43,186 bases of DNA from Halorubrum persicum (GTDB taxonomy: Archaea; Halobacteriota; Halobacteria; Halobacteriales; Haloferacaceae): assembly GCF_002727125.1 (NCBI RefSeq), contig NZ_NHOA01000016.1, positions 1 through 43,186 of the forward strand. The letters run 5' to 3'. The translations under genes and the position numbers were made by a program. Below are positions 3,296 to 26,482 of this stretch, in pieces (within the stretch, counting starts at the first letter, position 1; each line of letters begins with the position of its first letter). The notes under the pieces were generated by a model that saw only the letters and a program-made list of their open reading frames with translations, was not told the origin of the DNA and ran no database searches.

Positions 3296-4494
3296 ATGGA
3301 TGCCTGATCGCGCGCTTTCGACGCCGCTCGACGACTCGAGCGCTACCTCCAGGACAAGGGGAAAGGCCGCGGTGGGGACGGTGGGAACTATCGACGCAAC
3401 GCAGACCGCGAGCTCGAGCGGTTCGCCGAGTGGGCCGCCGGCGACCGCGGCGACGACTGGACCGGCATCGTTCCCGACGACGTCGACCGTAAGCCGACCT
3501 TCGACGATCCCGACGAAAGCGTGTTCCGGGAGTATGCCCGGCATCTCGGTGGAGATCGGGGACTCAAGCAGAACACCGTCAAAACCTATTACCGTTATAT
3601 CTCTGCGTGGTGTGGCTGGTGTGTCAACGAGGGCTACCTCGAGGCCCACTACGCGCATCGGGCGAGTGCGATGGCGCCGCTGCCGGAGGACGACGGCCGC
3701 AAGCCCGGCGACCAGCAGGCTTGGATGTCCGAACAGCGCGACGCGCTCACTCGTCACGTCGACGAACAGGCCCGCGACGCCATCGAGACGTACACGACAC
3801 TCCCGGAGGATACTGACCCCCTGGACAAACAACGAGCGCGTTACAAAGCGCTGAAGGCGGCTCGTGACCGGGCCCTGGTGTTCGTCTTAGCGTACACCGC
3901 TGTCCGCGTCGGTGAACTCCTCCGGGACCCGAACGACCCGGGTCGGCGCGGCGTCCGCTGGGAGGACCTCGCGCTTGATGACGGGAGTATGGACGTCTAC
4001 CGGAAGAAACAGCAGTGGGACGCCGCGAGTCTTCCCGACCCGGTGATCTCGCCGCTGCGAAGCTACCGCCAGCTGATGGACCCGCCAACGGACCGCTGGG
4101 CGGTGTTTCCGACGTTCGACCAACGGACGCTCGCAGGGCTCGTCCAGGATGAGTTTGCCGAGCGAGGGGAACGCCCGGACTCAATTGACGAACGACGCGA
4201 GGAATACGTCCGAGACTCTTGTTGGCGCTCGACGAGTATATTCAGCCGCCGTCGATCACGACGGACGGCGCCCGGTCGATTCTCCAGCGACTCTCGGGGG
4301 CGGCAGAGATCGACATCGATCACCCGAAACACGACTATCTCGCCCCCCACGGTGGTCGTCGGGGAATGGGTGAGGTTCTCGTCCGAGCATCCGGATACAC
4401 TGTGGCTGCCCGTTACCTCGACAACTCAGAGGAAATGATTCGCGAACGGTACTCGCATATCGAAGGTGGTGAACTTGGTGATGTAGCGACATAA
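3296..4494 (+). pseudogene. broken tyrosine recombinase (XerC/D-type integrase)
   Basis: An N-terminal SAM-like core-binding domain is readable (RRLERYLQDKGKGRGG, then NTVKTYYRYISAWCGWCV), followed by the catalytic domain: first Arg in YTAVRVGELLRDP, then HGGRRGMGEVL (His-x-x-Arg) and the Tyr nucleophile in RERYSHIE. Three lesions are visible. The only start in this frame (ATG 3296) is followed by a stop at 3305-3307. A one-base deletion near 4213-4216 shifts the frame just before LLALDEYIQPP. The tail stops at 4492-4494 where the reading after the stop (ALEE) still looks native. Intact relatives would cut and rejoin DNA to integrate or resolve a replicon. A second, more decayed copy lies inverted at 37430-38050. 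Confidence 0.85.
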
Positions 4495-4650
4495 GCTCTG
4501 GAAGAAGTCGACACCCATGGAAGAACATCCAGAATAGAATAATGAGAAAGTCGTCACAGGTTGTGGCGGTACCAATTTGAATCAAAAGGCGAGGACAACG
4601 CTGATGACTCCAACCCGAAAGGTTAATTGTTGGGTCTACGAGGCGGTGAC

Positions 4651-6099
4651 ATGCCCGAGAAACCGAACCTAATCTTTACGTTCGCTGACCAGCTCCGTCT
4701 CCAGTCGTGTGGGTACAGCGACGGCTACGCGGACGACCCGGAACCGTACACGCCGAATATCGACCGACTCGCCGACGAGTCGGCGGACTTCCGGAACGCT
4801 GTCTCCGGGAGCCCGATATGTGCGCCGTACCGGTCGTCTCTGTTCACGGGGAAGTACGCGAGTTCGACCGGGATGGTGATTAACGAACTCCGGACGATGC
4901 CGGACCCGGACGCTATCGGGCACGTCCTCTCGGAACACGGCTACCGCACCGCGTACATCGGCAAGTGGCACATGTACGGGACCGAAAACATCGACGACGA
5001 CGCACAGGAATTCGTCCCGCCGGGCCCCTACCGTCTCGGGTTCGACGACGAGTGGAAGGCCTACAACATGAACCACGACTACTACGACGGCTACTACTAC
5101 GAGGACGAACCCAACCAACAGGAGGTCGACGGGTACCTGCCGCACACGATGACAGACCACGCGATAGAGTTCCTCGAGCGGGCGAGCAACGATGACCGAC
5201 CGTTCGCGCTTTTCGTCAGTTACGGCCCTCCACACGACCCTTGGACCTGGGACAACTGCCCCGAGACGTTCGCACACTTGTTCCGCGACGAGGAGTTCCC
5301 GGACCCGCCCAACTTCGCGGACGGACACGCCCGCTACTGGCATCCCGAGTGGGACGAGGAGTGGTACAGGACCGAGTGGAAGCCCGACCGGCTCAGACGC
5401 CGACAGGTCTACGCCGCACAGACCGCAAGCCTCGACTGGCAGATCGGGCGTCTCCTGAACACGGTCGACGATCAGGGCGTTCGCGACGAAACCGCATTCG
5501 TGTTCACCTCCGACCACGGCGAAATGTTCGGGTCCCACGGACGGATTGCCAAGAACGTCTTCTACGAGGAGGCAGTCCGCGTTCCGTTCCTGCTTCGACT
5601 CCCCGACGTTGTCGACCCGGGTGTCCGGACTGCCCCGTTGAACACGCCCGACATCGCACCGACGTTGCTCGGCCTGTTCGGACTCCCGGTCCCGGAGTTA
5701 ATGGAAGGAACAGACCTGAGCCACGTCGCCCAGGGCGAAGACGGTCCGGCCCCCGAGGCCGCGTTCATGCAGGGAATGGGGCACACCTACCAGTGGAAGG
5801 ATGGCAACGAGTGGCGCGCAGCCCGCGACGAACGATACACGTATGCCCGGTGGCTCGACGGGCAAGAGTTGCTTTTCGACAACGTCAACGACACCTACCA
5901 GCTCGCGAACCTCGTAGACGACCCGGACCACCGGGACGTCTACGAGCGGTTGTCGTCATTTGTCGACGAGCGGATGACCGAGTTGAACGATCCCTTCGAA
6001 CGGACGACCTGGTATCGGGACCGGTGGGAAACAGACCGCGTCATCGTCCGGTCTGCGACCCGGGAACTCCCCGAAAAGTACCGACCCGATACCGAGTGA
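4651..6099 (+). CDS. arylsulfatase-family sulfatase
   Basis: Predicted type I sulfatase of 482 residues that would hydrolyse a sulfate ester on a carbohydrate or other organic sulfate. The opening PNLIFTFADQLR carries the first metal-binding Asp (Asp13). The formylglycine signature CAPYR spans residues 57-61, with Cys57 to be converted to formylglycine and Arg61 conserved. The second metal site is FTSDHGEMFGSHG, about two thirds along. ATG 4651 was chosen over TTG 4627 because family members begin within a few residues of the PN-hydrophobic strand. No signal peptide is visible, so it may act inside the cell, although substrate could be a sulfated oligosaccharide imported by a neighbouring transporter. 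No formylglycine-generating enzyme is in the window. Which sulfated sugar is cleaved cannot be told. Confidence 0.9.
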   Translation: MPEKPNLIFTFADQLRLQSCGYSDGYADDPEPYTPNIDRLADESADFRNAVSGSPICAPYRSSLFTGKYASSTGMVINELRTMPDPDAIGHVLSEHGYRTAYIGKWHMYGTENIDDDAQEFVPPGPYRLGFDDEWKAYNMNHDYYDGYYYEDEPNQQEVDGYLPHTMTDHAIEFLERASNDDRPFALFVSYGPPHDPWTWDNCPETFAHLFRDEEFPDPPNFADGHARYWHPEWDEEWYRTEWKPDRLRRRQVYAAQTASLDWQIGRLLNTVDDQGVRDETAFVFTSDHGEMFGSHGRIAKNVFYEEAVRVPFLLRLPDVVDPGVRTAPLNTPDIAPTLLGLFGLPVPELMEGTDLSHVAQGEDGPAPEAAFMQGMGHTYQWKDGNEWRAARDERYTYARWLDGQELLFDNVNDTYQLANLVDDPDHRDVYERLSSFVDERMTELNDPFERTTWYRDRWETDRVIVRSATRELPEKYRPDTE

Positions 6100-7542: not shown

Positions 7543-8646
<1,104 letters not shown>

Positions 8647-8650: not shown

Positions 8651-9535
8651 TTAGTCCTCGAATCCGCCCGATATACCTTTGATGAATCGTTCCTGAGAGA
8701 CCGCGAACAGCAGGAGAACAGGAATGACTGCTAGGATGCTGACCGCCATCAACTGATTCAACACGACGCTTCCGCGATTCCCGAAGAACGTCGCCAGTCC
8801 CACGCTGATCGTGTACATCGGGGTGTCCTGCATGAACACGAGTGCGAACAGGAACTCGTTCCACGAGAAGACGAACACGAAGATCGCGGCAGTCGCGATC
8901 CCCGGTTTCGTCAGCGGGAGAATGACGCGCAAGAACACTTTCCACTCCGGGATACCGCCCACGCGAGCGGCCTCTTCGAGATTGTTCGGGAGTGAGTTGA
9001 AGAATCCGTACAACAGGAAGATGGCGAACCCGGTGAACAGCATCGCGTAACAGAGGATCAGGCCGACGTGCGTGTTGACGATCCCGAGGTCCGAGAATAG
9101 AACGAAAAGCGGTAACACGAGCGCTTGGGTCGGGACCATCAACGTGCTCAGGAACAGCATCAGAAACAACCGTGCGCCGGGGATTTCGCGACGGGACAGC
9201 GCGTAAGCCGCGGGCGTCGAGACGACCACGACGAGTACCGTCGCACCGGCAGAGACGATGATCGTGTTGACGAACCAGCCGACCCACATCCCGTTTGCGA
9301 GCGCGTCCAAGTAGGGAACCAGCGATGGACTGTCCGGGATCAGCGTCGGCGGGAACTGTGTCACCGCCTCTCCGGTCTTCAGAGAGGTCGAGACCATCCA
9401 GTAGAACGGGAAGACGACGAGCAGCGTCACCAGTCCGAGTGCGGCGTACAACAGTCCGCGTTCGGTCGTCGTGAGGTCGGATGGGTCCTCGTCTGTGGCC
9501 GGGTCGCGGCCCGAGAAGTATTCTCTAATTGACAT
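8651..9535 (-). CDS. CUT1 sugar ABC transporter permease (MalG type)
   Basis: Inner membrane subunit of 294 residues with about six membrane helices, the first near residue 30 (LLYAALGLVTLLVVFPFYW). The EAA loop that docks on the ATPase reads LEEAARVGGIPEWKVF. The N terminus SLKTGEAVTQFPPTLIP after helix 1 is typical of MalG-like proteins. ATG 9535 was chosen; a GTG at 9544 would add three residues. The start overlaps the end of the upstream permease gene by 11 bp, which implies coupled translation. Together with the 9525-10436 product it forms the sugar channel. Confidence 0.93.
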   Translation of the reverse strand: MSIREYFSGRDPATDEDPSDLTTTERGLLYAALGLVTLLVVFPFYWMVSTSLKTGEAVTQFPPTLIPDSPSLVPYLDALANGMWVGWFVNTIIVSAGATVLVVVVSTPAAYALSRREIPGARLFLMLFLSTLMVPTQALVLPLFVLFSDLGIVNTHVGLILCYAMLFTGFAIFLLYGFFNSLPNNLEEAARVGGIPEWKVFLRVILPLTKPGIATAAIFVFVFSWNEFLFALVFMQDTPMYTISVGLATFFGNRGSVVLNQLMAVSILAVIPVLLLFAVSQERFIKGISGGFED

Positions 9536-10436
9536 TAAACTCACCCTCGACGTAGAAGAACGCAGTCGTTAGCACGAGGACGATCAGGAACTGGATGAAC
9601 CCGATCGCGGCCCCCTCGCCGTAGTTGAAGAAAGCGAAGGTCTGCTTGTAGAAGTACGTCCCGAGTATTTCGGTCGCGTGTCCGGGGCCCCCCTCGGTCA
9701 TGACGAACACCGAAGCGAAGGACTTCACGGCGTTGATGATCCCCAAGACGACAACGATCACGAGCGCTGACCGGGCCATGGGGACGGTTACGTGCCGAAA
9801 CGTCTGCCAGCGAGACTTGCCCTGTACTTTTGCTGCGTCGTAGACCTCGTCGGGGATAGACTGGAGACCCGCCAGGACGATGACCATGTAGTAACCGGTG
9901 CGCTTCCAGATAACCATCAGTAACACGACTGGGAGCGCGAGAACGGGCGAACTCAGCCACCGGATCCTAGAATCGACCACGCCGGTCCCGACGAGGACCG
10001 AGTTCAGGATACCGTTGTTGTTGAATATCCAGACAAAGAGGATTCCTGCGACGACGATGGGGACTATTTGCGGTGTGAAGATGATAGACCGCACCGTCGT
10101 CGAACCCGGCACGTCGACGTTGAGCATGGCGGCGATGATTAGGCCGAGGACGACCGGGACCGTGATCCCGACGACGCCGTAGACGAGAGTGTTCTGTGCC
10201 GCCTGCCAGAACACCGGGTCCGACAGCACGTTCTGGTAATTGGCCAGTCCAACCCACTCGTTGGACCCGCCCAAAGAGAAATTCTGGAAACTGAGCAAGA
10301 ATAGTTCAGCCAGTGGGTAGAGCATGAAGACAGCGTACAGCAATAGTGCGGGGACGACGTACAGGTACAGCTTGAGGCTAATCCGTCCCGAATCGGTCAA
10401 CACGTCGAGTACTCTCTCTCGTATTGTTGCTATCAT
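9525..10436 (-). CDS. CUT1 sugar ABC transporter permease (MalF type)
   Basis: Inner membrane subunit of 303 residues with six predicted helices; the first begins at LYLYVVPALLLYAVFML. The EAA loop reads EVYDAAKVQGKSRWQTF. ATG 10436 was taken as the start because it places the usual short cytoplasmic leader (IATIRERVLDVLTD) before helix 1; a GTG at 10460 would add eight residues. It lies about 66 bp after the binding protein gene and overlaps the next permease gene. Together the pair should pass an oligosaccharide or monosaccharide inward. Confidence 0.93.
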   Translation of the reverse strand: MIATIRERVLDVLTDSGRISLKLYLYVVPALLLYAVFMLYPLAELFLLSFQNFSLGGSNEWVGLANYQNVLSDPVFWQAAQNTLVYGVVGITVPVVLGLIIAAMLNVDVPGSTTVRSIIFTPQIVPIVVAGILFVWIFNNNGILNSVLVGTGVVDSRIRWLSSPVLALPVVLLMVIWKRTGYYMVIVLAGLQSIPDEVYDAAKVQGKSRWQTFRHVTVPMARSALVIVVVLGIINAVKSFASVFVMTEGGPGHATEILGTYFYKQTFAFFNYGEGAAIGFIQFLIVLVLTTAFFYVEGEFNVN

Positions 10437-10502
10437 GCTGGAACCAGTCCTCGTGGGCACGCCGAAACCGGTGCGGTCGATGGCACTGTTCTCAATCTCG
10501 AG

Positions 10503-11825
10503 TTAGAGGACATTATTGTTGATCCGGTCGACGACGTCGTCGAGGACCGACTGTGCGGACTCTTCGCCGTTGAGTGCCGGTGCCATCCCCGAGTACAGTG
10601 CCGAGGAGACGGCGCGGTAGTTCGGGTTGATCGGCGGGGCCGTCCCCTGTTCGAGGGCTGTCTCGAATGAACTGAAGATGTCCTCGTTTTCCTGGGCCGT
10701 CTCGAGGTCGAACCCGGACGACCGGGCCGGGAAGTACCCGTTGTCGAGCGTGACCTGCATCCCGGGGTCAGTGTTGGTCCACTCGACGAAATCCCGGGCT
10801 GCTTCGAGTGCCTCGCCCTCGGCCTGTTTGGTGATAACGATGGAGTTTCCACCGAGGAACGACGTGCGTTCGGCGTTCGAATCCGGAGCCGGCAGCAGTC
10901 CGACACCCAAATTGCCGTTCTCGATCATGTCGGGTTTGTTGTCCCTGGCGTACCCAAGCGCGTATCCACCACTAGTGACTATCGACGCGTCGCCCGAGAT
11001 GAACATGTCGTGTGCGGCTTGCCACTCGGTCGACACGAGATCCGTCGAGTTTCCGCTCTGGTTAAGTTCGGCCCAGAACTCTAGGGTCTCGACACCAGCG
11101 TCGGAGTTGATGACACACTCGGAACCGTCTTCGCTGAACAGATTCGCGCCGTTCGACCACGCGGTCGGCAGGAAGAAGAACCCGCCGAAGGAACTCGCGG
11201 TGCCCACTCTGTCGGAAGTGCTGAGTTGCTCGTTGGCAGCGAGGAAATCGTCCCACGTCGCCGGCGGATTCTCGGGATCCAGTCCCGCCTCCTCGAAGTG
11301 TGCCTTGTTGTAGTAGTACACCGAGAGGTCGATCCAGAACGGCATCGCGTAGGTCGTGTCGTTGTAGGAAACGAAATCCTCCCGGAGCGGTTCGAACACG
11401 TCGTCTCGGTACTCCAGGTCCGACGTGAACGACCCGATGTCCCGGAGCGCACCGAGCTGGGCGAAGTTCGCGATCTGGACGACGTCGAGCCCGATCACCT
11501 CGGGCGCGTCACCCGCACTTATTTGCGAGATGGCAGACTGATAGGCCCCCCCCGAAGTCGTCGGGTTCACCTGCGTCTCGACGCTGTAGTCCTCGCTCTC
11601 GGCACTGTATTCAGTGGCGTAGTCCCCACACCACTCGTATCGGTCGTAGTAGGCTATCTGTGTGCTTCCGCTGGAGCCGTCTCCGGAGCCGTCGTTGCTG
11701 GTCCCGTCGCCATCGTTATCTGACTGCTGGGAACACCCTGCCGTCGCAGCGAGCGCTCCGCTGGTCAGAAGCAAGTACTTGCGCCTGCTCAACTCACTAA
11801 GACTCGCATCTTGTTGTCTTGGCAT
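10503..11825 (-). CDS. extracellular sugar-binding lipoprotein (TAT-exported)
   Basis: Family 1 solute-binding protein of 440 residues that captures the sugar outside the cell. The N terminus has a twin-arginine signal, SRRKYLLLTSGALAA, and a lipobox TAGC with the lipid Cys near residue 34, followed by a Ser/Gly/Asp linker. The body carries typical CUT1 features, such as WDDFLAANEQL and the C-terminal helix ESAQSVLDDVVDRINN. The TATA box at 11848-11857 lies about 27 bp before ATG 11825, which points to a leaderless start here and excludes longer upstream readings. It heads the importer operon and follows the GH127 gene by 86 bp, so arabinose-containing oligosaccharides are a fair guess for the ligand. 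Confidence 0.92.
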   Translation of the reverse strand: MPRQQDASLSELSRRKYLLLTSGALAATAGCSQQSDNDGDGTSNDGSGDGSSGSTQIAYYDRYEWCGDYATEYSAESEDYSVETQVNPTTSGGAYQSAISQISAGDAPEVIGLDVVQIANFAQLGALRDIGSFTSDLEYRDDVFEPLREDFVSYNDTTYAMPFWIDLSVYYYNKAHFEEAGLDPENPPATWDDFLAANEQLSTSDRVGTASSFGGFFFLPTAWSNGANLFSEDGSECVINSDAGVETLEFWAELNQSGNSTDLVSTEWQAAHDMFISGDASIVTSGGYALGYARDNKPDMIENGNLGVGLLPAPDSNAERTSFLGGNSIVITKQAEGEALEAARDFVEWTNTDPGMQVTLDNGYFPARSSGFDLETAQENEDIFSSFETALEQGTAPPINPNYRAVSSALYSGMAPALNGEESAQSVLDDVVDRINNNVL

Positions 11826-11847
11826 GACACTATCATGAATTCGAGAG

Positions 11848-11857
11848 TATATAATAA
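11848..11857 (-). promoter_or_regulatory. TATA box of the first importer operon
   Basis: TTATTATATA on the minus strand, about 27 bp before the ATG at 11825. The spacing implies transcription starting at or very near the start codon. Confidence 0.6.
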
Positions 11858-13882: not shown

Positions 13883-14087
13883 GACTGCTAATCGGTCTCA
13901 CCCTGATGATTTATTTCTGGGGATCGGCCAGTCGGTCTGTGTACCGGACAGGTCTGTTGCCGTCTGAGATGTCCCCAAACGGCGGGAAATCACCGAAGAC
14001 AGTTCTCCACAGAGACGAGAGGTCGGATAGACACCTCATCCAAGTGACGGGAAAGAATTTGTACCAGTAGGTAGCAAACAGGGTCAT

Positions 14088-15962
14088 ATGCTTCGCGAAA
14101 GCCAGCGACTAGAACCTCGGTCATTTGAACGACTCCCGCTGGGAGCGGTCGAACCCCGCGGCTGGCTCCGGCGGCAACTGGCGATCCAAGCCGACGGGCT
14201 GAGCGGACACATCGACGAGCGGTGGGAAGACCTCGCCGACAACGCGTGGCTAGGGGGGGAGTACGACGGATGGGAGCGAGGGCCCTACTACGCCGACGGA
14301 CTCGTCCCGCTCGCGCACCTGCTCGACGATGACGACCTCCTCGCGAAGGCCCAGCGGTGGGTCGACGGCTTTCTCGACGCACAGGACGAGGACGGCTGGT
14401 TCACGCCCGAGCAGGTGTGGGCACGAGCCGACCCCGACGACCCCTGGTCGCGGTACGTCATCTGCAAGGTCCTACGACAGCACTACGAGGCGACGGGCGA
14501 CGAGCGGGTGTTCGATGCGATCGTCTCGTTCGCCGAATACCTGCTCGAACACCCCGACGACTGGGAGATCAACGACTGGGCCGAGATGCGGTGGATGGAC
14601 CTCGCACTCGAACTCCACTGGCTTTACGAGGAGACTGGCGAGGACTGGGTGCTTGACGTCGTCGACCTCCTGATCGGGAGGGGATTCGACTGGATCGACC
14701 ACTTCTCCGATTTCACATTCGACGGCAAACAGCTAGACGACCCCAAGATGAGTACTCACGTCGTCAACAACGCGATGGGAATAAAGGCCCCCGCGGTTCA
14801 CTATCGCCAGCGCGGGGATAGTGCCTCCAGTCAGGCTGTCTACGACGGGATCCGGAACCTCGATCGCTTCCACGGACAGGTGACTGGTCTGTTCACCGGT
14901 GACGAGCACCTCTCCGGCAAGAACCCCTCCCAGGGAACCGAACTGTGCGCTGTCGTGGAGTACATGTACTCCCTGGAGTATCTCGTCTCGACGCTGGGTG
15001 ACGCCGTTCTCGGCGATCGGCTCGAACGGATTACGTACAACGCACTCCCGGCGACATTCACCCCCGACATGTGGGCTCACCAGTACGACCAGCAGGCCAA
15101 CCAGGTCCTGTGTAACGTCGCGGAACGCTCTTGGACGAACGGTCCGGACGCCAACATCTTCGGACAGGGGCCCAACTTCGGGTGCTGTCACGCCAACTTC
15201 CACCAAGGCTGGCCAAAGTTCGTCGCCAGCATGTGGATGCGCTCGGTCGACGACGGCCTGGCAGCCACCGCGTACGGTCCCAGCGAAGTAACAGTAGAAC
15301 TGGACGACAATACGGATGTTACGGTCGTCGAGGAGACAGACTACCCTTTCGAGGACGCGATCACCTTTCGTGTCGAGGCCGACGAACCGGTCTCGTTCCC
15401 GCTCCACCTTCGGATACCATCGTGGGCCGACAGCGCACACGTCAGTCCCCCCGGCGAGGACGCTCACGAGACGACATCCGGGGAGTACCACGTCGTCGAC
15501 CGCGAGTGGGAGCCTGGTGACGAGGTGGTCCTCTCGATGTCACCGGCGGTCACGACCGAACGCCGCCACCACGGGAGCGTCGTCGTGTTGCGGGGTCCCC
15601 TCGTCTACTCGTATCCTGTCGAGGCGGACGCGCAGGTGATCGAGGGGACCCCGCCGGCAGCCGACTGGGAGTACCACCCCGCGGAGCCCTGGAACTACGG
15701 ACTGGCTATCGACACAGAGGACCTGGAGAGATCGGTCACGGTCGAGATGGGAGCTATCGACGACATCCCGTTTTCCCCCGCTGACCCCCCCGTCGAACTC
15801 ACGGTTGAGGGAGGTCTCGTCCCCGAGTGGTGCCTTGAGGACAACTGGGCGGGCGAGATTCCACACAGTCCGACGCGAACCGAAGGAACCTTGACGGAAC
15901 TCACGCTGGTGCCCTACGGAGCGACAAATCTACGGGTGACCGAATTCCCGCTTCTCATCTGA
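14088..15962 (+). CDS. GH127/DUF1680-related glycosidase, distant
   Basis: Protein of 624 residues from the same superfamily as GH127 but clearly remote. The barrel region has the WEDLADNAWLGGEYDGWERG opening, followed by GWFTPEQVWARADP and WMDLALELHWLYEETGE. The zinc/cysteine pattern is kept: Glu285-x-Cys287 in GTELCAVVEY, and Cys366-Cys367 in FGCCHANFHQGWPKF. The residues around them differ from GH127 (CCHANF instead of CCPPN). A C-terminal beta-sandwich part includes PVSFPLHLRIPSWAD. It would cleave a furanoside or related sugar, substrate unknown. It is divergent from the GH127 gene with about 205 bp between and co-directional with the IclR gene. No signal peptide was seen. The family assignment is good; a specific activity is not claimed. 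Confidence 0.75.
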   Translation: MLRESQRLEPRSFERLPLGAVEPRGWLRRQLAIQADGLSGHIDERWEDLADNAWLGGEYDGWERGPYYADGLVPLAHLLDDDDLLAKAQRWVDGFLDAQDEDGWFTPEQVWARADPDDPWSRYVICKVLRQHYEATGDERVFDAIVSFAEYLLEHPDDWEINDWAEMRWMDLALELHWLYEETGEDWVLDVVDLLIGRGFDWIDHFSDFTFDGKQLDDPKMSTHVVNNAMGIKAPAVHYRQRGDSASSQAVYDGIRNLDRFHGQVTGLFTGDEHLSGKNPSQGTELCAVVEYMYSLEYLVSTLGDAVLGDRLERITYNALPATFTPDMWAHQYDQQANQVLCNVAERSWTNGPDANIFGQGPNFGCCHANFHQGWPKFVASMWMRSVDDGLAATAYGPSEVTVELDDNTDVTVVEETDYPFEDAITFRVEADEPVSFPLHLRIPSWADSAHVSPPGEDAHETTSGEYHVVDREWEPGDEVVLSMSPAVTTERRHHGSVVVLRGPLVYSYPVEADAQVIEGTPPAADWEYHPAEPWNYGLAIDTEDLERSVTVEMGAIDDIPFSPADPPVELTVEGGLVPEWCLEDNWAGEIPHSPTRTEGTLTELTLVPYGATNLRVTEFPLLI

Positions 15963-16017: not shown

Positions 16018-16036
16018 CGGGGCCCCGGCACTTATG
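16018..16036 (+). promoter_or_regulatory. palindrome abutting the promoter of the first IclR gene
   Basis: CGGGGCCCCG at 16018-16027 is a perfect 10-bp palindrome and is followed by a TATA-like ACTTATG about 27 bp before the ATG at 16061. The position fits an autoregulatory operator, but GC-rich palindromes of this length also occur by chance. Confidence 0.35.
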
Positions 16037-16060
16037 TTCTGCCCTCCCCCACGTCCGGAC

Positions 16061-16894
16061 ATGGAGACGGACGACGCCCCGGTCATCGAAAGTTCACAAA
16101 AACTGTTCCAGGTCCTCGAACAAGTCATCGAGAAAGAGGGTGGCGGAGTAACCGAGATCGCTGACGAGACATCGCTGGCCAAGAGTACGACCCACCTCCA
16201 CCTGCAGTCGCTGCTCGCGACCGGCTACGTTGTCAAGCGCGACGGCCAGTATTACCCGTCGCTACAGCTGTTCGAGTGGGGTGAGAAGGTCAGAAATGGG
16301 ATCGAGGTGTACGTTAAGGGTCGCGGCGAGGTCGACGAACTGATCACGAACGTCCGAGGAGTCGCAAAACTCGGTGTCCTCGAGGGCGACAGCGTCAGGC
16401 TAGCGTACGTCAAGGAGCGCGCCGACGACGCCACCGAGTCCTCCGCACAGTCTATCTCGACCGAATTCAACGCGGACACCCCCACCGTGATGGATCACAC
16501 CGGGGAGTACCGAAATCTGCTTGGTAAGGAGATGAACATTCACGCCACGGCTATCGGCAAAGCGGTGCTGGCCGAAATGTCCAGAGACACCGTCGAATCA
16601 ATCGTCGACCATCACGGGCTCCCGCAGTACACCGAGAACACGATCACTGACGAGAGCGCGCTGTTCGACGAACTGGATCGCATTCGTGAGCGGGGCTACG
16701 CAATCGACTCCGAAGAGTGGGCCGCGGACATCTCCTGTATCGGCGCAGCGATCACGCGCAAAGACAGGCCTGTCGGCGGAGTGAGTATCAGCGGCCCAAA
16801 TGGATACGTGGACGGCAACCTCGTCGACGAGATCGCACGACGGGTGATCAACACCACGAACATGATCGAGGTGAAGTTGACGCACGGTCGATAG
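16061..16894 (+). CDS. IclR-family transcriptional regulator
   Basis: A winged HTH N-terminal domain (residues about 15-65: VIESSQKLFQVLEQV, then GVTEIADETSLAKSTTHLHL and GYVVKRDGQYYP) is followed by an effector-binding IclR domain. The second domain has the typical HATAIGKAVLAEM and the terminal ISCIGAAITRKDRPVGGVSISGP segments. The length of 277 residues is standard. ATG 16061 was chosen over ATG 16034 because it fits a leaderless start after the A/T-rich 16029-16036. Such regulators bind sugars or sugar acids and control catabolic genes. Neighbouring targets would be the two glycosidases and the importer. A second IclR at 30744 differs in sequence, so the two halves of the locus may be controlled separately. 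Confidence 0.9.
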   Translation: METDDAPVIESSQKLFQVLEQVIEKEGGGVTEIADETSLAKSTTHLHLQSLLATGYVVKRDGQYYPSLQLFEWGEKVRNGIEVYVKGRGEVDELITNVRGVAKLGVLEGDSVRLAYVKERADDATESSAQSISTEFNADTPTVMDHTGEYRNLLGKEMNIHATAIGKAVLAEMSRDTVESIVDHHGLPQYTENTITDESALFDELDRIRERGYAIDSEEWAADISCIGAAITRKDRPVGGVSISGPNGYVDGNLVDEIARRVINTTNMIEVKLTHGR

Positions 16895-18330: not shown

Positions 18331-19197
18331 TCAACTGTCACTGGTTTTAGCGAACATCGGCGGTACCTTCCCCGGTTTGTCGACGTTGTAGCGATCGCCG
18401 ACTGACCCGATTTCGACAACCTTCGGATACGAGAATGTCGTCGCATGACGGGTTAAGCCACTGGGATCTGCTTCCAACCCCTTCCACATGTTCCAGTGGG
18501 TCGGAAACAGCCTAGTGAGTCGCAACTGGTTGGCGGCTTTAATGATGGCATTCTCGTCCATATACCAGTTCTCCGGTTTCGAGGAGTCCGTTTTCGCGTG
18601 ATAAACGTGCCCGATGGAGCCGAACGCGAGAGCCCCAAGATCGATGTCGAACTCTCGGCCGATGTCGTCGAACGTGTGAGTCGGTCGACTGTCCCCTCCA
18701 TGAAAGAATACCTCATCTTTGTGTTCAAACACGTACGACACCGGCTGGTGGGAATCGGGATCGGTAGCACCACGAACGTACACAGAAATGTCACCGATAG
18801 TCAATTTATCATCGGGAACCACACGTCGGTACTGCGTCTGGGGAGGACCTTCCGACTCTTCGGAGAGAGTATCAAGCGCTGCTGGAGGACCATAGAGGTT
18901 CGCGCCCGTGTCCAACAACGGCTCGAACGAAGGCGGATGGAGGTGGTCAGTGTGTTCGTGGGTGGCCAGGACGGCATCACATTTCGTCGCATCGGTTGGA
19001 TCCATCGGAACCGGACACATCCGTATAGCGTAGCGACGATGCTCTCCAGTCCCGAAATAGGGATCGACATACAGCGTCGTCTCGGCTGTGCGGACAACGA
19101 ACCCGTTGCAGCCGAGGAACCAGACAGACATTCCCGAGGGATCTGCGCCCTCGATCTCTTCTCGGACGAACCAGTCAGACCACGTCGAAGTGATCAC
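18331..19197 (-). CDS. UlaG-like metallo-beta-lactamase fold lactonase
   Basis: Metal-dependent hydrolase of about 288 residues. It resembles E. coli UlaG (L-ascorbate-6-phosphate lactonase) from the start: WSDWFVREEIEG and MSVWFLGCNGF match the UlaG segments WGSWLNEEIE and MWWLGCTG. The metal motif HEHTDHLH is at residues 80-87, and later HGGDSRPTH and FPTHWNMWKG supply further ligands. GTG 19197 was chosen because TTTAAGT at 19222-19228 is 28 bp upstream, as in a leaderless start; a TTG at 19230 would add 11 residues. In this setting a sugar lactonase (aldonolactone or aldarolactone to the acid) is the best guess, since the pathway needs one and no other is present. It is divergent from the dehydratase gene at 19324. 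Confidence 0.75.
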   Translation of the reverse strand: MITSTWSDWFVREEIEGADPSGMSVWFLGCNGFVVRTAETTLYVDPYFGTGEHRRYAIRMCPVPMDPTDATKCDAVLATHEHTDHLHPPSFEPLLDTGANLYGPPAALDTLSEESEGPPQTQYRRVVPDDKLTIGDISVYVRGATDPDSHQPVSYVFEHKDEVFFHGGDSRPTHTFDDIGREFDIDLGALAFGSIGHVYHAKTDSSKPENWYMDENAIIKAANQLRLTRLFPTHWNMWKGLEADPSGLTRHATTFSYPKVVEIGSVGDRYNVDKPGKVPPMFAKTSDS

Positions 19198-19293
19198 AAC
19201 AACAGGATGAAGACAAGAACACTTAAACAATCAGGTCAGTTCGTGCGCGGTCGTCGCTAACTAGAGTAGGATCTCGAGCAGCATAACAAGAAG

Positions 19294-19306
19294 CTATTTG
19301 CAATAG
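19294..19306 (+). promoter_or_regulatory. CTATT-TGC-AATAG dyad before the 19324 dehydratase
   Basis: A perfect 5-bp-arm dyad lies 18-30 bp before the start at 19324, where the core promoter should be, in the 126-bp space between this gene and the divergent lactonase gene. It is a candidate operator shared by both. Confidence 0.35.
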
Positions 19307-19323
19307 TTTATTGAACACAGTAT

Positions 19324-20469
19324 ATGCGGATCTCAACCATCGAAGCTATTCCGCTCAAACACTCACTTGAGGACGGTCGTGGATTCGGCGGAACGCGTGG
19401 CGTAACGACAACCCGAACTGCGACGCTGGTCAAGCTCACGACCACCGACGGAACCGTCGGTTGGGGAGAAGCGTTCGCGCCTCCACGGACGGTAGCGACG
19501 CTCGTTGAGGAAGTGTTCCGCGATGCCGTCGTCGGTACCGATCCGATGAACGCCGACACTCTCGCCGATGATGTCTATACTGGTGACATCGTCGGCTATC
19601 ACTTCGGTAGAGAAGGGGTCGTCCAAGCTGCTCTGACTGGCGTGGAGGTAGCGATGTGGGACCTCCGTGGGAAACAGCTCGGAGAACCGGTCCGAAGACT
19701 ACTGGGCGGCCAGAACCGCGAGCAGGTGACCCCGTACGCATCGACGATGTACATAACAGAATGGGGAGAGGATCCGGCCGAACCGATGTCTGCGGCGGCC
19801 GAAGAGGGATTTACCGCGGCGAAGATTAAGATAGGCCGTTCTGTCGACGATGACGTTCACCGCGTCGAGACTGCGCGTGAGATACTCGGCGACGACGCAC
19901 ACCTGATGGTGGATTACAACGGCAATTATACACCGAGTCAGGCGATCGAGTCGATCCATGCTATCGAGCAGTACGATCTCACTTGGGTAGAAGAGCCCGT
20001 TCCGCCGGAGAACCGTGAGGGATACGAGCGTATCCGAACTCGTGTCGACGTTCCACTCGCGGCCGGCGAAGCACACTTCGGACGGTTTGAGTTCACCGAC
20101 CTCGTGACCGACGGGACGGTCGATATAATTCAGCCGAACCTCGGACGCTGTGGCGGGTTAGCCGAAGCACGCTACATCGCACAGGTTGCTACAACCGAAA
20201 ACGTCCAGGTTCGTCCACACGTCTGGAATAGCGGGGTCGGCCTCGCAGCTGCCCTCCAGTTCGCGTCGACGGTACCTTCGTATCCGGAACCATCCGGCCG
20301 GGCAGGCCAACCCGTTCTCTTCGAATTCGATCGGAGCGAGAATCCGCTTCGACACAAGATTTTGACGGAGCCGTTCGATCCGACCGGCGGATCGCTCGAC
20401 GTCCCCGACGAACCCGGTCTAGGAATCGATATCGACGAGGACGCTGTCGACGAGTACCGTGTCGACTAA
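19324..20469 (+). CDS. enolase-superfamily sugar-acid dehydratase (mandelate racemase type)
   Basis: Mandelate racemase/muconate lactonising enzyme fold protein of 381 residues: an N-terminal capping domain and a TIM barrel. Active-site residues in order are Lys167-x-Lys169 (AAKIKIG), metal ligands Asp197 (MVDYNG), Glu223 (WVEEPV) and Glu249 (AAGEAH), and His299 (RPHVWNSG). Three carboxylate ligands with a His acid-base place it with aldonate or aldarate dehydratases. The substrate is probably one sugar acid produced in this locus, for example an arabinonate, galactarate or altronate; sequence alone does not decide. It is read divergently from the UlaG-like gene. The C-terminal tail (DVPDEPGLGIDID) is shared with the other two MR-type enzymes in the window. 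Confidence 0.85.
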   Translation: MRISTIEAIPLKHSLEDGRGFGGTRGVTTTRTATLVKLTTTDGTVGWGEAFAPPRTVATLVEEVFRDAVVGTDPMNADTLADDVYTGDIVGYHFGREGVVQAALTGVEVAMWDLRGKQLGEPVRRLLGGQNREQVTPYASTMYITEWGEDPAEPMSAAAEEGFTAAKIKIGRSVDDDVHRVETAREILGDDAHLMVDYNGNYTPSQAIESIHAIEQYDLTWVEEPVPPENREGYERIRTRVDVPLAAGEAHFGRFEFTDLVTDGTVDIIQPNLGRCGGLAEARYIAQVATTENVQVRPHVWNSGVGLAAALQFASTVPSYPEPSGRAGQPVLFEFDRSENPLRHKILTEPFDPTGGSLDVPDEPGLGIDIDEDAVDEYRVD

Positions 20470-20624
20470 TGCTGCCCATTTGATATCCTTTCTTCGTTGA
20501 AATACAAAGATTCCAGCATGGGACAGCGAAGTCTTAGTCTCGTACTTCCGTGACGATCCGGGATTGCTCTCTCTTCGATACGTTTCGAAATACAATTTTA
20601 CAGTAAAAAACTACTAGCCGACGT

Positions 20625-21767
20625 TCACCCAACGAATGGAGTGAGCTCTTCCTGTTCAGCGACGGGGTGTCGCAACGCGACGCCACTGTTGCCGTCGAAG
20701 AGATGGATGTGTTCCTCCGGGAACCTCATACCGACGGTATCTCCCGACTCGACACGTGTACGCCCGTTAACGGTCCCAATAACGGCCTCGTTCGACTCTC
20801 GATCTCTCGGGATGAGATAGAGGTTGTTCTCCTTACCAAACGGTTCGACCACGTCGACTTCAACGGCGATATCATTCGGTTCCGTAGGCTCTGGAACGAC
20901 GACGACGTCTTCGGGTCGAATCCCAAGGACAATATTAGTCGCCGATTCGAGTTCCATCGCCGTCGATTCCGAGATCTCGTAATCGAAGTCGTCAGTGCTG
21001 AGTGTCTGCGCGTCACGCGAACAGTTGATGAAATTCATCGACGGTTCGCCGATGAATCCTCCGACGAAGATGTTGTTCGGTTCGTAGTAGCACTCCATCG
21101 GTGTCCCGATCTGTTGAAGTTTCCCATTATTCATGATGGCGATGCGGTCACTCATCGTCATTGCCTCGGTCTGATCGTGGGTAACGTAGATGGTTGTTAC
21201 CCCTAGTTCTTCCTGTAACCGCTGGAGTTCGGTCCGCATATCGGCACGGAGTTTGGCGTCGAGGTTGCTGAGAGGCTCGTCCATCAAAAAGACATCAGGA
21301 TCACGGACGATAGCCCGTCCCAACGCGACACGCTGCTGTTGACCTCCTGAGAGATCATCCGGTTTGCGGTCCAACAGTTCGGGGATATCGAGGACATCTC
21401 CGATCTCGTCGACCCGCTTGCGTATCTCATCCGAAGACAGGTCCGTCGACTGCTTAAGCCCGAAACTCATGTTCTCACGAACGCTCATATGTGGATACAG
21501 CGCGTACGACTGGAACACCATCGCGGCGTTTCGCTCCTGGGGGCTCCGGCCTTTTATTGACCTGCCTTCAATACGGAGGTCGCCTTCAGTGATCGTTTCG
21601 AGGCCAGCGACCATGCGGAGAGAAGTCGTCTTCCCGCAGCCGCTGGGACCGACGATGACGAGGAATTCGCCATCGTTGATTTCCATGCTCAATTCCTCTA
21701 CCGCGACGATCTCGCTGTTACCGTCGCGGAACTTCTTCGTTACTTCGTCGAATGTAAGGTTTGCCAT
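20625..21767 (-). CDS. CUT1 sugar ABC transporter ATPase, second importer
   Basis: ATPase of 380 residues in the MalK/UgpC family. Walker A is GPSGCGKTT near residue 38, followed by VFQSYALYPHMSV (Q-loop), LSGGQQQRVALGRA (signature), VFLMDEPLSN (Walker B) and IYVTHDQTEAMT (H-loop). The C-terminal TOBE/OB part includes VGGFIGEPSMNFI and LGIRPEDVVV. It is the last gene of the second importer operon, 14 bp after the permease stop. It is a paralogue of the ATPase at 7543, with differences spread over the C-terminal domain. Confidence 0.95.
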   Translation of the reverse strand: MANLTFDEVTKKFRDGNSEIVAVEELSMEINDGEFLVIVGPSGCGKTTSLRMVAGLETITEGDLRIEGRSIKGRSPQERNAAMVFQSYALYPHMSVRENMSFGLKQSTDLSSDEIRKRVDEIGDVLDIPELLDRKPDDLSGGQQQRVALGRAIVRDPDVFLMDEPLSNLDAKLRADMRTELQRLQEELGVTTIYVTHDQTEAMTMSDRIAIMNNGKLQQIGTPMECYYEPNNIFVGGFIGEPSMNFINCSRDAQTLSTDDFDYEISESTAMELESATNIVLGIRPEDVVVVPEPTEPNDIAVEVDVVEPFGKENNLYLIPRDRESNEAVIGTVNGRTRVESGDTVGMRFPEEHIHLFDGNSGVALRHPVAEQEELTPFVG

Positions 21768-21781
21768 GTTGAACGTACCTC

Positions 21782-22723
21782 TCAGTATTCCACTCCTTTT
21801 GCGAACTGTTCACCGAACGCGATGTAGACGATGAGCGTCGGGATGGCCGTAATAAACGCCCCCGCCATCTGGTTGTTCCAGTTCTGTGAGAACCCGCTGT
21901 TGAGCTCAGCCAACGCGAGCGTGACCGGTGCCCCCGCGCTCGGATCGCTGCCTCCAATCAGAATGAGCGCATACAGAAATTCGTTGTATATCTGTGTGAA
22001 CTGGAAAATAAACACGACCATGAACATTGGATAGGACAGCGGCAGAATGATGTGACGGTAAATCGCGTAAATACCAGCGCCGTCGATCCGCGCGGCCTCC
22101 ACGATATCGTGGTTAAGGGTCAAATAGTAGCCTCTGAACAGAAGCGTCGCAATACTGATCCCATAAGCCGAATGGGTTATGATCAAGATGATCAGGTTCG
22201 TGTGACTGGGATCGGCGAATGGTAATGAAAAGTACCCCAGACTTGTCAATATGCCCTCTAGGTCGACGGTGTTCCAGAACCGGGACAGCGGGAGCAAGAT
22301 ACCCTGTTTTGGGAGGAAGATTGCGAGAATGAACGCCGTCATCAGTGCGACCTGTCCACGCCAGTTGACCATCGAGAGGCCGTATGCGGCGAAACTCCCG
22401 AGAACAGCCGAGAACACCATCGCAGGGATGGTGAAGATCAGACTGTTCCAGAGCGTGGGGCTGAGCGTTTCCCAAGCTACCGCCCACGCGTTGAGAGTGA
22501 CTTGATCCACCGTTGGAGGCGTCAACGGGAGCGTGCTGATGAACGCGCTCTGGGTCTTGAACGCCGTCGTGATCCCGCCCCAGAGTGGGGAAACCCAGAA
22601 GACGGCCAACGCGACCGTAAGTATCGTTGCGATGACGTGCTTGCGTTGGACCTGCTCGAACCGCTCGTTCAGGTCTGTATCGTTCCATCCGACTGCGTTC
22701 TTCACTGTGGTTGTCAGTTTCAT
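21782..22723 (-). CDS. CUT1 sugar ABC transporter permease (MalG type), second importer
   Basis: Membrane protein of 313 residues with about six helices; the first follows KHVIATILTVALAVFWV. The EAA loop reads HDIVEAARIDGAGIYAIY. Its position between the MalF-type permease and the ATPase, and its C-terminal end with AFGEQFAKGVEY, fit MalG-like permeases. Start ATG 22723. The 58-bp gap from the preceding permease holds no promoter I can see, so co-transcription is likely. Confidence 0.93.
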   Translation of the reverse strand: MKLTTTVKNAVGWNDTDLNERFEQVQRKHVIATILTVALAVFWVSPLWGGITTAFKTQSAFISTLPLTPPTVDQVTLNAWAVAWETLSPTLWNSLIFTIPAMVFSAVLGSFAAYGLSMVNWRGQVALMTAFILAIFLPKQGILLPLSRFWNTVDLEGILTSLGYFSLPFADPSHTNLIILIITHSAYGISIATLLFRGYYLTLNHDIVEAARIDGAGIYAIYRHIILPLSYPMFMVVFIFQFTQIYNEFLYALILIGGSDPSAGAPVTLALAELNSGFSQNWNNQMAGAFITAIPTLIVYIAFGEQFAKGVEY

Positions 22724-22781
22724 GCGAGTCCCTCCTCTCGTAGATCAGGTGACAGAGTCGTTCCTGTCTGCTCGTCGTACA

Positions 22782-23750
22782 TTACAGTTCACCACGCTTG
22801 TACTGGTAGTAGAGGTACGGGGTCACGATCATGACCGTACCCACGAAGAGCACGGACCCGATCGCCGCACCGTATGCCCATTGATTCGCTGAGAAGGCGA
22901 CCCGGTACATCATCACGCCGAGGATGTCGGCTGCCGGGCCCGGATTGCTCCCGAAGACGGTGTACAGCCACGCGAACGCTTTCAGTGAGAACACCATGAT
23001 AACCACCGCAATACTCACCGAGGCGGAGCTCAACTGAGGAATGATAACCTTCCAGTAGGTCACGAAGAACCCCGCCCCGTCGACCTTCGCTGCTTCGTAG
23101 TGCTCTTGGGGGATCGTTCGGAGGCTAGCGAGGTAAATTATCATCGCGTAGCCGCCGTATTGCCATATGAGAGCGAACATGACCGCGCCCAGACGTAACG
23201 ACGGGTTCCCCAACCAGTTGAGTGCCAGAGCGTCGAGTCCGAGCAGGTTGAACATCGTGTTTATCGTCCCGATCTCAGGATTGTACATCCACTGCCAGAA
23301 GACACCCGTCACGACGAACGACAGTGCGAAGGGGAGTAGAAACACGGTGCGGAGGATGCTTTGCCATTTCAGGAGGTTATCCACAAGGATCGCAAGCAAG
23401 AGACCGACTAATAGACACAATAATGTGAACACGACCAACAGAAGGATCGTATTCCGAGCTGCGGCGTGGAATGACGGATCCCCGAGCATCCGCGTGTACA
23501 TCTCGAAATCGAAGTTCGAAAGGGCATACTCGGGTCGGACGACCCCCGAGAAGTCAGTCAGAGAGATAACGAAGTTCCAGAAGATTCCCCCATAGACGAA
23601 CAATCCCATCAACAACGTCGGGGGCAACCAGAAGGGCATTGAACGGATAAAATCGCTCCGAAGATACGACCGTATCCTTCCCTCTTTGGAGTGTTCCTCC
23701 GGGCTAGACCCGTTCTCCAGTGTTGATTTGATTTTGTTGATTGCGCTCAT
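22782..23750 (-). CDS. CUT1 sugar ABC transporter permease (MalF type), second importer
   Basis: Membrane protein of 322 residues. A hydrophilic leader of about 35 residues precedes the first helix (MPFWLPPTLLMGLFVYGG), and about six helices follow. The EAA loop reads QEHYEAAKVDGAGFFVTYW. It is the first permease after the binding protein gene, with a 207-bp gap that leaves room for a separate promoter or a processing site. Start ATG 23750. Confidence 0.93.
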   Translation of the reverse strand: MSAINKIKSTLENGSSPEEHSKEGRIRSYLRSDFIRSMPFWLPPTLLMGLFVYGGIFWNFVISLTDFSGVVRPEYALSNFDFEMYTRMLGDPSFHAAARNTILLLVVFTLLCLLVGLLLAILVDNLLKWQSILRTVFLLPFALSFVVTGVFWQWMYNPEIGTINTMFNLLGLDALALNWLGNPSLRLGAVMFALIWQYGGYAMIIYLASLRTIPQEHYEAAKVDGAGFFVTYWKVIIPQLSSASVSIAVVIMVFSLKAFAWLYTVFGSNPGPAADILGVMMYRVAFSANQWAYGAAIGSVLFVGTVMIVTPYLYYQYKRGEL

Positions 23751-23957
23751 CTATCGTTCATGATTAAATCAATTATAATAAACCCATCGGTAACAACTGA
23801 CACGGCAGCTATACCCTCGAAGCTCGAACACGAGTAGCGCTTCATAGAACGTTCAGTTTTGTTTACGCAGGCTCCCTGCTGTGTGAGTCCGGACGGGCGG
23901 CCTTCCGACAAAAGTATGCACTGAACGAAACGGTAGTGGTAGAACCAGCGGATGGAT

Positions 23958-25340
23958 CTACAGCGTCATCGCGTCCATTAATGATTGTGCCGTCGCTTGG
24001 ACGTTGCCCTGATCCCGGAAGCGAGCCATCGCGTTCTTCAGTGACGTCCCCTGCTGTGGGGTGACACCATCACCGTGCGCGAGAGTAAGGATTCCGGTCC
24101 CACTCTGATAGTCGTCCGCCTGATTCTGGAGCAGTTCGCTGAATTCGCTCATGTCGACGTCGGTTCGACATGGGATCGCTCCCTTCGGCTGACAGAAACG
24201 ACGCTGAGCTTCTGCGCTTCCGACCCACTCCATCCACTTGTCTGTCGCATCCGGCGTCGGATTCGGTTTCGGATAGGGGAACCCGTCAGTGTTGATGGTA
24301 TAGACGCCGTCGGTGCCGGGATACGGGGCGTGACCCCAGTCGTCACCGTACTCGTAATTCTCGGCCGCGAAGAGGTTCCCTGCGGCCCAGTCACCTTCCA
24401 TCAGGCTCACTGCATCACCCTGGGGAAGCTTGAGACGGGCAGCGTCGGACCCGACCGAACTCGCGTCCTCGGTGGCGAACCCCATCTGTGTCTGTGTGAC
24501 TTCGAGAGCCTCCTCAACCTCCGACGTGACGTCGTCCCCGTTCTGGAAACCTTCGTAGGCCTCAACACCGTGCAACCCAACGAGATTCGCGTTCCAGAGC
24601 TGGAGGATTGTCCACGGGACGGCCATCGACAATCCAAGTGGAGCGATGTCCAATTCGCCATCGAGTTGTTCGAGGACTTCGACGTACTCGCGTGGGTCCC
24701 CGATACTCGTCATATCGACGCCTGCCTCCTCGACGGAAGCTATGTCCCAGAAGACATTATTGACGCGATGAATATTCAGCGGCATCGCTACATATGGGTT
24801 CTCCTCGTCGCCCGCTCTGGCCGAGAGAAGAGCACCATCTCCGTAGTTCTCCTCTATCTCACCCTCGAAAATATAGCTAATGTCCTTGAGCGCCCCCGCA
24901 TCAACGTAGTCTTGGAGATTAGCACCGGGCCAGTCTTGCCAGGTGCTCGGCGGATCGCCTTCCAGAACTTTTTGCCGGATGACAGCTTGGAGGTTCGTCC
25001 CACCACCGCCCGCAACTGGGTTGTCGTTGATCTCGATGTTGGGATACTTCTCAGTGAACCCCTCTTGAAGCTCCTCCATTCCGATAGCTCCGCCACCGTC
25101 GGTCCACCAGTGCTGTAACTCGAGCGTGGTGGTACCGTCATCACCGTCGCTACTACCGTCATCACCGTCGCTACTACCGCCATCACCGCTACTACCGTCA
25201 TTACCGTCGCTGCCGTCATCACCGCTACTGGTATTACTGTCGCCACCACAGCCAGCGATGGCGATCGAACCCGCTGTACTCCCGAATAGCTTCACGTAGC
25301 TCCGACGTGAAAAGTCAGAGTCACCCGTGTTATCTGTCAT
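23958..25340 (-). CDS. extracellular sugar-binding lipoprotein, second importer
   Basis: Family 1 solute-binding protein of 460 residues. The twin-arginine signal SRRSYVKLFGS is followed by a lipobox IAGC (Cys near residue 31). A long linker of about 40 residues made of Gly, Ser and Asp follows, encoded by tandem repeats of an approximately 21-bp unit between 25130 and 25250. The ligand domain contains LQHWWTDGGGAIGM and WQDWPGANLQDYVD. A TATA box TTTATATGCC at about 25371-25380 (minus strand) is 31-40 bp before ATG 25340, so a very short leader is possible. Its repertoire with the first binding protein suggests different sugars for the two importers. Confidence 0.92.
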   Translation of the reverse strand: MTDNTGDSDFSRRSYVKLFGSTAGSIAIAGCGGDSNTSSGDDGSDGNDGSSGDGGSSDGDDGSSDGDDGTTTLELQHWWTDGGGAIGMEELQEGFTEKYPNIEINDNPVAGGGGTNLQAVIRQKVLEGDPPSTWQDWPGANLQDYVDAGALKDISYIFEGEIEENYGDGALLSARAGDEENPYVAMPLNIHRVNNVFWDIASVEEAGVDMTSIGDPREYVEVLEQLDGELDIAPLGLSMAVPWTILQLWNANLVGLHGVEAYEGFQNGDDVTSEVEEALEVTQTQMGFATEDASSVGSDAARLKLPQGDAVSLMEGDWAAGNLFAAENYEYGDDWGHAPYPGTDGVYTINTDGFPYPKPNPTPDATDKWMEWVGSAEAQRRFCQPKGAIPCRTDVDMSEFSELLQNQADDYQSGTGILTLAHGDGVTPQQGTSLKNAMARFRDQGNVQATAQSLMDAMTL

Positions 25341-25624
25341 GATTTACCACAATAATGTGCGTCTTCCAGAGGCATATAAAGATTATGTTTCCATCAATAA
25401 GTCTGGTCGGCAGCAGTGGTCACATATCATACAAAACCCCCGAAGCCCTTGCCTATTACCGGGAGAGAGGATGCTCCGTCCCGACGAAACGTATCAGACT
25501 GACTCCGATGCATACGTATCTGACTCGCATGGCTGTGGAACCGTGTTAGGCGAACGAAACTCGAACCAGTCGAAGATTGACTTTGAATTTTCTCAGTCGA
25601 CACGACCTTGTCTAGCGCATTTGC

Positions 25625-26482
25625 TCAGTCAGTGTCGGTGGTTTCTGTTGGAGGTGCGTCCCATTCTTCGCCGTTGTCCTGGGGACTGTAGCCGAGTCGC
25701 TCGCGAGCATGGTTGATACCAAACCAGCCGCGGTCGTTGTTACTTACCCCGTTGAAGATGCCGAAGGAGACGTCTTCGTCGCGGAGACAGCATTCGATCA
25801 GGTGGGCGAAGTCCCTACGGGACTGCCACATCCCTTTCATCCGAGCGACCTGTTCATCATACACGTCGCTGCCGCGCTCCGTTTCGCCCTCGTCGACCAT
25901 CCGTTCAGCGTCCCCGTACGGGTGATCGTATGGCGCGTGCCGAACCGAACAAATACGAATCGCATAAAATTGGTCTATCCCATCGTTCTGCTCGGCGTAC
26001 TGGCGACCGATTGCCTCGCCGAAAGCTTTGCTGCTCCCGTAGAAGGAGTCCGGTCGGATCGGATCCTCGTGGGTGAGTTCGAGGTCGAATCCCAGTTCGT
26101 AGATGTCGGGTGCGAACTCCTCCTCGTACATCCCCATGACGTGGTTGGTCGAACCAAAGACGACGGAGTCGACACCCGCATCACGCGCAGCCTCAAGGAT
26201 ATTATACGTTCCGATGACGTTTGGCTCCAAGATATCTGTCCACGTACCATCGACGTACGGATACGCTGCGAGATGAACCACGGCATCGATACCGTCGAAT
26301 GCGGGACGGATCGCGTCGTAGTCCGCGACGTTAGCAACGAAAGTGTCATACTCTCCATATTTGTCATCTTTATCTCGGTCCGATCGGTTGAGATATGTGA
26401 ACTCTAGATCGGCCTCGTCGTGAAGATGATCGATAATAGCCGTGCCACAGCGTCCATATGCTCCTGTCACTAAGACATCCAT
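25625..26482 (-). CDS. extended SDR sugar dehydrogenase (uronate or L-arabinose dehydrogenase type)
   Basis: NAD(P)-dependent short-chain dehydrogenase of 285 residues. The nucleotide motif GAYGRCG is at residues 7-13, the active-site Ser111 precedes TNHVMGMY, and the catalytic pair is Tyr148/Lys152 in YGSSKAFGE. The S-x-N-H-x-x-G-x-Y pattern is shared with uronate dehydrogenases (SSNHTIGFY type) and with the haloarchaeal extended-SDR L-arabinose dehydrogenase class. It would oxidise the sugar C1 to the lactone. ATG 26482 was chosen because the TATA box TTTATATG at 26504-26511 (minus strand) lies about 25 bp upstream; upstream ATGs at 26506 and beyond overlap the promoter. It is the entry step to the dehydratases. 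Confidence 0.8.
   Translation of the reverse strand: MDVLVTGAYGRCGTAIIDHLHDEADLEFTYLNRSDRDKDDKYGEYDTFVANVADYDAIRPAFDGIDAVVHLAAYPYVDGTWTDILEPNVIGTYNILEAARDAGVDSVVFGSTNHVMGMYEEEFAPDIYELGFDLELTHEDPIRPDSFYGSSKAFGEAIGRQYAEQNDGIDQFYAIRICSVRHAPYDHPYGDAERMVDEGETERGSDVYDEQVARMKGMWQSRRDFAHLIECCLRDEDVSFGIFNGVSNNDRGWFGINHARERLGYSPQDNGEEWDAPPTETTDTD

Follow-up and report, generated by a model that had tools for sequence, protein, structure and literature searches.

A divergent GH127-like gene beside a canonical one in Halorubrum persicum belongs to a large and uncharacterised clade with a conserved zinc-cysteine core

Results

Gene content of the locus

The stretch of DNA analysed here (hereafter the window) comprises 43,186 bases of the H. 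persicum genome (G000) and carries two GH127-type genes, a canonical one and the divergent one with which this study is concerned (Table 1). The first-pass annotation had described a distant GH127-like gene paired with a canonical one in opposite directions, and this holds: the neighbour is a full-length canonical GH127 gene, and the two starts diverge from each other, 205 bp apart. The canonical protein keeps every HypBA1 active-site position compared, namely H133, H181, H269, E321, E337, C339, Y385, C418 and C419. The ABC sugar importer adjoining the pair is a complete set. A third PF07944 protein is absent from the 3.58-Mb haloarchaeal genome. Since family searches found neither GH51 nor GH43 proteins in it, the two GH127-type genes seem, as far as the searched families go, to be all the arabinofuranosidase-type equipment that it has.

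Further along, the region 18331-36107 resembles an oxidative hexuronate pathway and includes a second ABC importer and a second IclR gene. A third protein of the MR/MLE superfamily is distant from solved members (best 5olc, E 7.5e-30). An S1-type sulfatase with a CxPxR signature (SPICAPYRSS) lies near the GH127 module. ParA-like, possible integrase-like and transposase-like genes, named by eye, flank the sugar clusters; the integrase-like frame has no Pfam match. The window may be mobile or plasmid-borne.

Table 1 Positions of the genes and features in the window
Feature	Position	Strand	Details
ParA-like, possible integrase-like and transposase-like genes	1604-2560, 3521-4438, 38640-39275		named by eye
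S1-type sulfatase	4627-6099		
ABC transporter ATPase, MalK/UgpC type	7543-8646	-	profile match; counterpart in G329
ABC transporter permease	8651-9544	-	Pfam; counterpart in G329
ABC transporter permease	9525-10460	-	Pfam; counterpart in G329
Sugar ABC transporter substrate-binding lipoprotein	10503-11849	-	SBP_bac_8, SBP_bac_1; exact start uncertain; kept beside the G329 homologue
Canonical GH127, 656 aa	11912-13882	-	PF07944 358 bits, positions 1-376 of 376; PF20736; PF20737
Intergenic region between the two divergently oriented GH127-type genes	13883-14087		205 bp
Divergent GH127-like protein, 624 aa	14088-15962	+	intact frame, ATG to stop
IclR-type regulator	16034-16894	+	71 bp downstream of the divergent gene; ortholog also after the G329 homologue, 47% identity
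Galactarolactone cycloisomerase-like MR/MLE protein	19324-20469		
Second ABC importer	20625-25340		
NAD-epimerase/uronate-dehydrogenase-like protein	25625-26545		
Glucarate dehydratase-like protein	28084-29313		
KdgD-like protein	29673-30626		
Third MR/MLE-superfamily protein	31996-33243		
UxuA-like protein	33394-34470		
2,5-dioxovalerate dehydrogenase	34659-36107		above its NCBIfam cut-off

Domains, fold and the putative zinc site of the divergent protein

A Pfam search of the divergent protein matched PF07944 (GH127 catalytic) at residues 71-378 with 75.8 bits, exceeding the curated cut-off of 24.9, and PF20736 (GH127 middle) at 391-484 with 67.1 bits; PF20737 (GH127 C-terminal) was not found by the same search. 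The protein thus falls within the PF07944 superfamily, and given these two scores its residue pattern cannot be put down to chance. The Glu-x-Cys plus Cys-Cys pattern originally reported is in place exactly as described, with glutamate at 285 and cysteines at 287, 366 and 367. Its surroundings, said to depart from CCPPN, read CCHANFHQGWPKF at residues 366-378 and contain the HQGWPK signature. Judged by eye, the N-terminus has no hydrophobic, secretion-signal-like stretch.

AlphaFold2, given 67 relatives, produced a model with a mean pLDDT of 94.4 and a pTM of 0.95. Every one of the 21 top-ranking PDB structures for this model is a GH127/GH146 enzyme (TM 0.63-0.73, 14-19% identity), and the next fold scores a TM of only 0.37, so that the predicted structure superimposes on the solved GH127/GH146 enzymes. 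A profile-profile comparison of the divergent clade with 16 canonical GH127 proteins gave a probability of 100% and an E value of 1.8e-39 over 434 columns. In that comparison E285, C287, C366 and C367 align with HypBA1 E338, C340, C417 and C418, and H224 and Y333 with H270 and Y386. None of the first four residues varies among the 67 aligned relatives, so that both residue conservation and the predicted fold support a putative zinc site at E285/C287/C366/C367. Likewise unvarying in the 67 are R168, H262, N227, K233, Q332, N338, Q339, N370 and Q373, together with D272-E273, an Asp-Glu pair just before the Glu-x-Cys motif that is also retained by the sister lineages whose motifs read CCQHN or CCVPN.

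Active-site elements lost relative to HypBA1

In contrast to the zinc site, the residues that shape the HypBA1 sugar pocket are the ones that have changed. In the profile alignment, the loop with the acid/base Glu322 of HypBA1 (GxxHxGE), invariant in 16 of 16 canonical rows, is a gap in the divergent clade, and so is the segment containing H142 (HELYxxGH); the position of H194 does not hold a histidine. Both histidine positions are invariant in canonical GH127 (16/16). PDB 7EXU, the E322Q form of HypBA1 with pNP beta-L-arabinofuranoside, supports E322 as the residue altered in the substrate complex. If the general acid/base has been relocated, D272-E273 would be the obvious candidate. Because the expected glutamate is absent, a different chemistry or an inactive enzyme also has to be allowed for.

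Distribution and phylogeny of the clade

A scan of GTDB genomes showed that at least 588 species-genome loci, mostly bacterial, encode relatives, which rules out both a chance pattern and a gene private to H. persicum. The unusual motif is the signature of a large bacterial clade and nothing special to this gene, with the proviso that HQGW was one of the two search patterns, so that its frequency among the matches is biased upward. The best 80 of these relatives share 41-56% identity with the divergent protein and come from Bacillota, Chloroflexota, Acidobacteriota, Poribacteria, Verrucomicrobiota, Planctomycetota, Bacteroidota and other phyla. Public annotation calls the relatives only "beta-L-arabinofuranosidase domain-containing" or "glycoside hydrolase family 127". 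In one open-access literature collection we found no characterised member of the HQGWP clade, and nothing relevant on a haloarchaeal GH127.

Haloarchaea seldom carry the gene: beyond H. persicum, full-length copies occur in just two of roughly 390 genomes in the class, G329 (71% identity) and G249 (57%). A C-terminal fragment with 65% identity in G131, an incomplete genome with runs of N, was left out of the analysis. The three haloarchaeal copies group together in a maximum-likelihood tree (support 100/99), as a clade that nests next to Bacillota copies (100/100), and acquisition of the divergent gene from bacteria is the simplest reading. A branch of 2.44 changes per site (100/100) separates the HQGWP clade from GH127 proper, the latter including HypBA1, DagA and the canonical copy of the window, with GH146 sequences outside the tree's sampling. 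By its acid/base glutamate position, its two histidine positions and its place in the tree, the divergent protein thus lies outside GH127 proper. Its clade, of which it is a new haloarchaeal representative, is large and already catalogued but uncharacterised, and retains the zinc-cysteine core.

Other non-canonical PF07944 lineages, with CCVPN or CCQHN motifs, were seen at L101 11932-13872, L018 11845-13899 and L019 6001-7914, and are uncharacterised as far as we found.

Pairing with canonical GH127 in other genomes

The block in G329 comprises a substrate-binding protein, two permeases, an ATPase, three canonical GH127 genes, the homologue and an IclR gene, all of which the window matches, at 42-71% identity; beyond these it holds a GH95 gene and two genes for aldo/keto reductases, which the window module lacks. 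The module is common to at least one haloarchaeon of another family. Among bacterial homologues, a canonical GH127 gene lies within 5 kb at 11 of 80 loci (the best 80 of at least 588), and in several Chloroflexota the divergent and canonical frames overlap, downstream of ABC-permease genes. Given how densely canonical GH127 genes occur in 14 of the genomes concerned, about 0.4 paired loci would be expected, giving a Poisson tail of 4e-13, or 2e-7 with related loci collapsed to seven lineages; these estimates are rough, as flanks are often incomplete, most of the paired genomes are among the 14 and the loci are related. The direction is nevertheless clear and points to a recurrent functional pairing across several phyla. 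The pairing in H. persicum is a recurrent arrangement and not an accident of one genome.

The homologue in G249 is not beside a canonical GH127 gene, which lies about 1.4 Mb away. Its neighbourhood (L106, G249:C1:2930000-2949999) contains five sulfatase matches, two GH51-like proteins and a DUF2961 protein. Apart from canonical GH127 and the importer, neighbours of the bacterial homologues are diverse, with GH43 (4/85) and BD-FAE (3/85) the most frequent by Pfam counts; these counts are too varied to fix one substrate. As individual loci, we also observed a canonical GH127 gene after two genes of the HQGWP clade in L045 (3234-9910), and several PF07944 genes in G423, including two close divergent/canonical pairs.

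Discussion

Taken together, the evidence tilts towards a cytoplasmic zinc-cysteine retaining exo-glycosidase that acts on a furanosyl-type substrate delivered by the importer and shared with the canonical GH127, in a module of bacterial origin. The absence of a signal-like N-terminus and the adjacent complete ABC importer suggest that an imported oligosaccharide is trimmed in the cytoplasm. A short oligosaccharide would enter through that transporter, and both GH127-type enzymes would trim it from the non-reducing end inside the cell. In the divergent enzyme, zinc would be held by Glu285, Cys287, Cys366 and Cys367, with Cys366 or Cys367 as the nucleophile and Asp272 or Glu273 in place of HypBA1 Glu322 as acid/base. 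The enzyme probably removes a non-reducing-end furanosyl-type sugar, either L-arabinofuranose or a related sugar in another linkage or decoration, after which the canonical GH127 would take a beta-L-arabinofuranosyl unit off the same substrate. A furanosyl sugar as the target is favoured by the fold and the canonical partner. The module as a whole (importer, canonical GH127, divergent gene and IclR) may have been assembled from genes of bacterial origin.

Given the loss of the acid/base loop and of two active-site histidines, and with no characterised GH127 or DagA enzyme inside the clade, a new specificity, as first proposed from the letters of the DNA, is plausible. A more specific version of our proposal would make the HQGWP clade a separate family of the zinc-cysteine clan, ranging from Chloroflexota to haloarchaea, with an acid/base relocated to Asp272/Glu273, an undescribed specificity and a canonical GH127 partner working on one imported oligosaccharide. 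We put this version forward tentatively, as possible rather than probable.

Several alternatives have to be weighed against the furanosyl-type exo-glycosidase reading. With the same zinc-cysteine mechanism, the protein might act on a sugar that has nothing to do with arabinofuranose, such as anhydro-galactose, a branched acid sugar or a sulfated unit from algae, while the canonical neighbour acts elsewhere on the same glycan. At least three GH127-type specificities provide precedent, namely beta-L-arabinofuranosidase, aceric acid hydrolase and alpha-1,3-(3,6-anhydro)-D-galactosidase (PMC5698469, PMC10850190). The sugar-pocket residues H142, H194 and E322 of HypBA1 are not kept, sulfatase genes lie near the copies in both the H. 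persicum window and G249, and downstream the window encodes a hexuronate-type pathway. However, the sole algal precedent, the DagA type (ETCAN/CCPPN), falls inside canonical GH127 and so offers no close guide, and the pairing with canonical GH127, like that with GH51-like and DUF2961 proteins in G249, points to pentofuranosides. We regard an unrelated sugar as somewhat unlikely.

Less likely still, the protein could function as a GH127/GH146 enzyme despite its sequence, being a beta-L-arabinofuranosidase that targets a different linkage or aglycone. The shared fold and zinc/nucleophile residues, the alignment of H224 and Y333 with HypBA1 H270 and Y386 and the recurrent canonical partner all agree with it, yet the acid/base loop and the two histidine positions that never vary in the canonical proteins are missing, and the separating branch is long. 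That the protein is a non-hydrolytic or inactive relative (a binding protein, a transferase or a decayed copy) we consider very improbable. The HypBA1 acid/base position does lack its glutamate, but the catalytic-site residues are invariant across many phyla, the reading frame is intact and the replacement Asp-Glu pair never varies; decay would not yield such conservation.

Cysteine glycosidases are few, and their chemistry hinges on two features, the zinc site and the acid/base residue. Having the zinc-cysteine core without the known acid/base loop, this clade would reveal how much such chemistry can be reshaped, and hundreds of genomes would carry an annotation for an activity that their protein may lack. 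The operon with a canonical GH127 gene, found repeatedly, offers a direct route to the substrate.

Comparison with known systems

HypBA1 employs a zinc-bound cysteine as its nucleophile (PMC10850190). With HypBA1 and the other GH127 enzymes Ara127N and BT3674, the divergent protein shares the fold (TM about 0.7), PF07944 and PF20736, the four zinc/nucleophile residues and the H270 and Y386 positions. It differs from them in its low sequence identity (14-19%) and in lacking PF20737, the Glu322 loop, the HELYxxGH segment and the histidine at H194. With the GH146 enzymes BT0349 and Bll3HypBA1 it has the clan GH-P fold and the Cys-Cys/zinc arrangement in common, yet the resemblance is weaker (TM 0.63-0.66; E 4e-15 over part of the protein, as against 2e-34 for GH127). 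GH127 structures match better by both profile and fold, which argues against assigning the protein to GH146. An assignment as aceric acid hydrolase (NCBIfam NF049879) was rejected at 68.7 bits against a curated cut-off of 950.

The DagA alpha-1,3-(3,6-anhydro)-D-galactosidases of Zobellia belong to GH127 (PMC5698469). Like the divergent protein, they are PF07944 proteins without the HypBA1 acid/base glutamate motif; unlike it, they carry the canonical CCPPN, score 320-333 bits for PF07944 as opposed to 76, and are nested in canonical GH127. We searched for carrageenan loci with a Zobellia DauB query whose sequence was taken from a PDB alignment. In a Zobellia-like genome that matched DauB at 99%, the three adjoining GH127 genes have ETCAN/CCPPN motifs and fall inside canonical GH127 in the tree. 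Since DagA-type proteins sit there, we rejected a DagA identity for the divergent gene. The galactarolactone cycloisomerase-like MR/MLE protein of the window is closer to its namesake than to DauB, and the divergent gene does not lie beside dauA-D carrageenan genes.

Database-annotated bacterial relatives of the same clade, from Hymenobacter, Deinococcus, Spirosoma and Parabacteroides, are full length, 35-45% identical and carry CC[T/L]xNxHQGWxK. In contrast to the window protein, several of them have a signal-like hydrophobic start, and after the Cys-Cys pair they have Thr or Leu where the window and G329 proteins have His.
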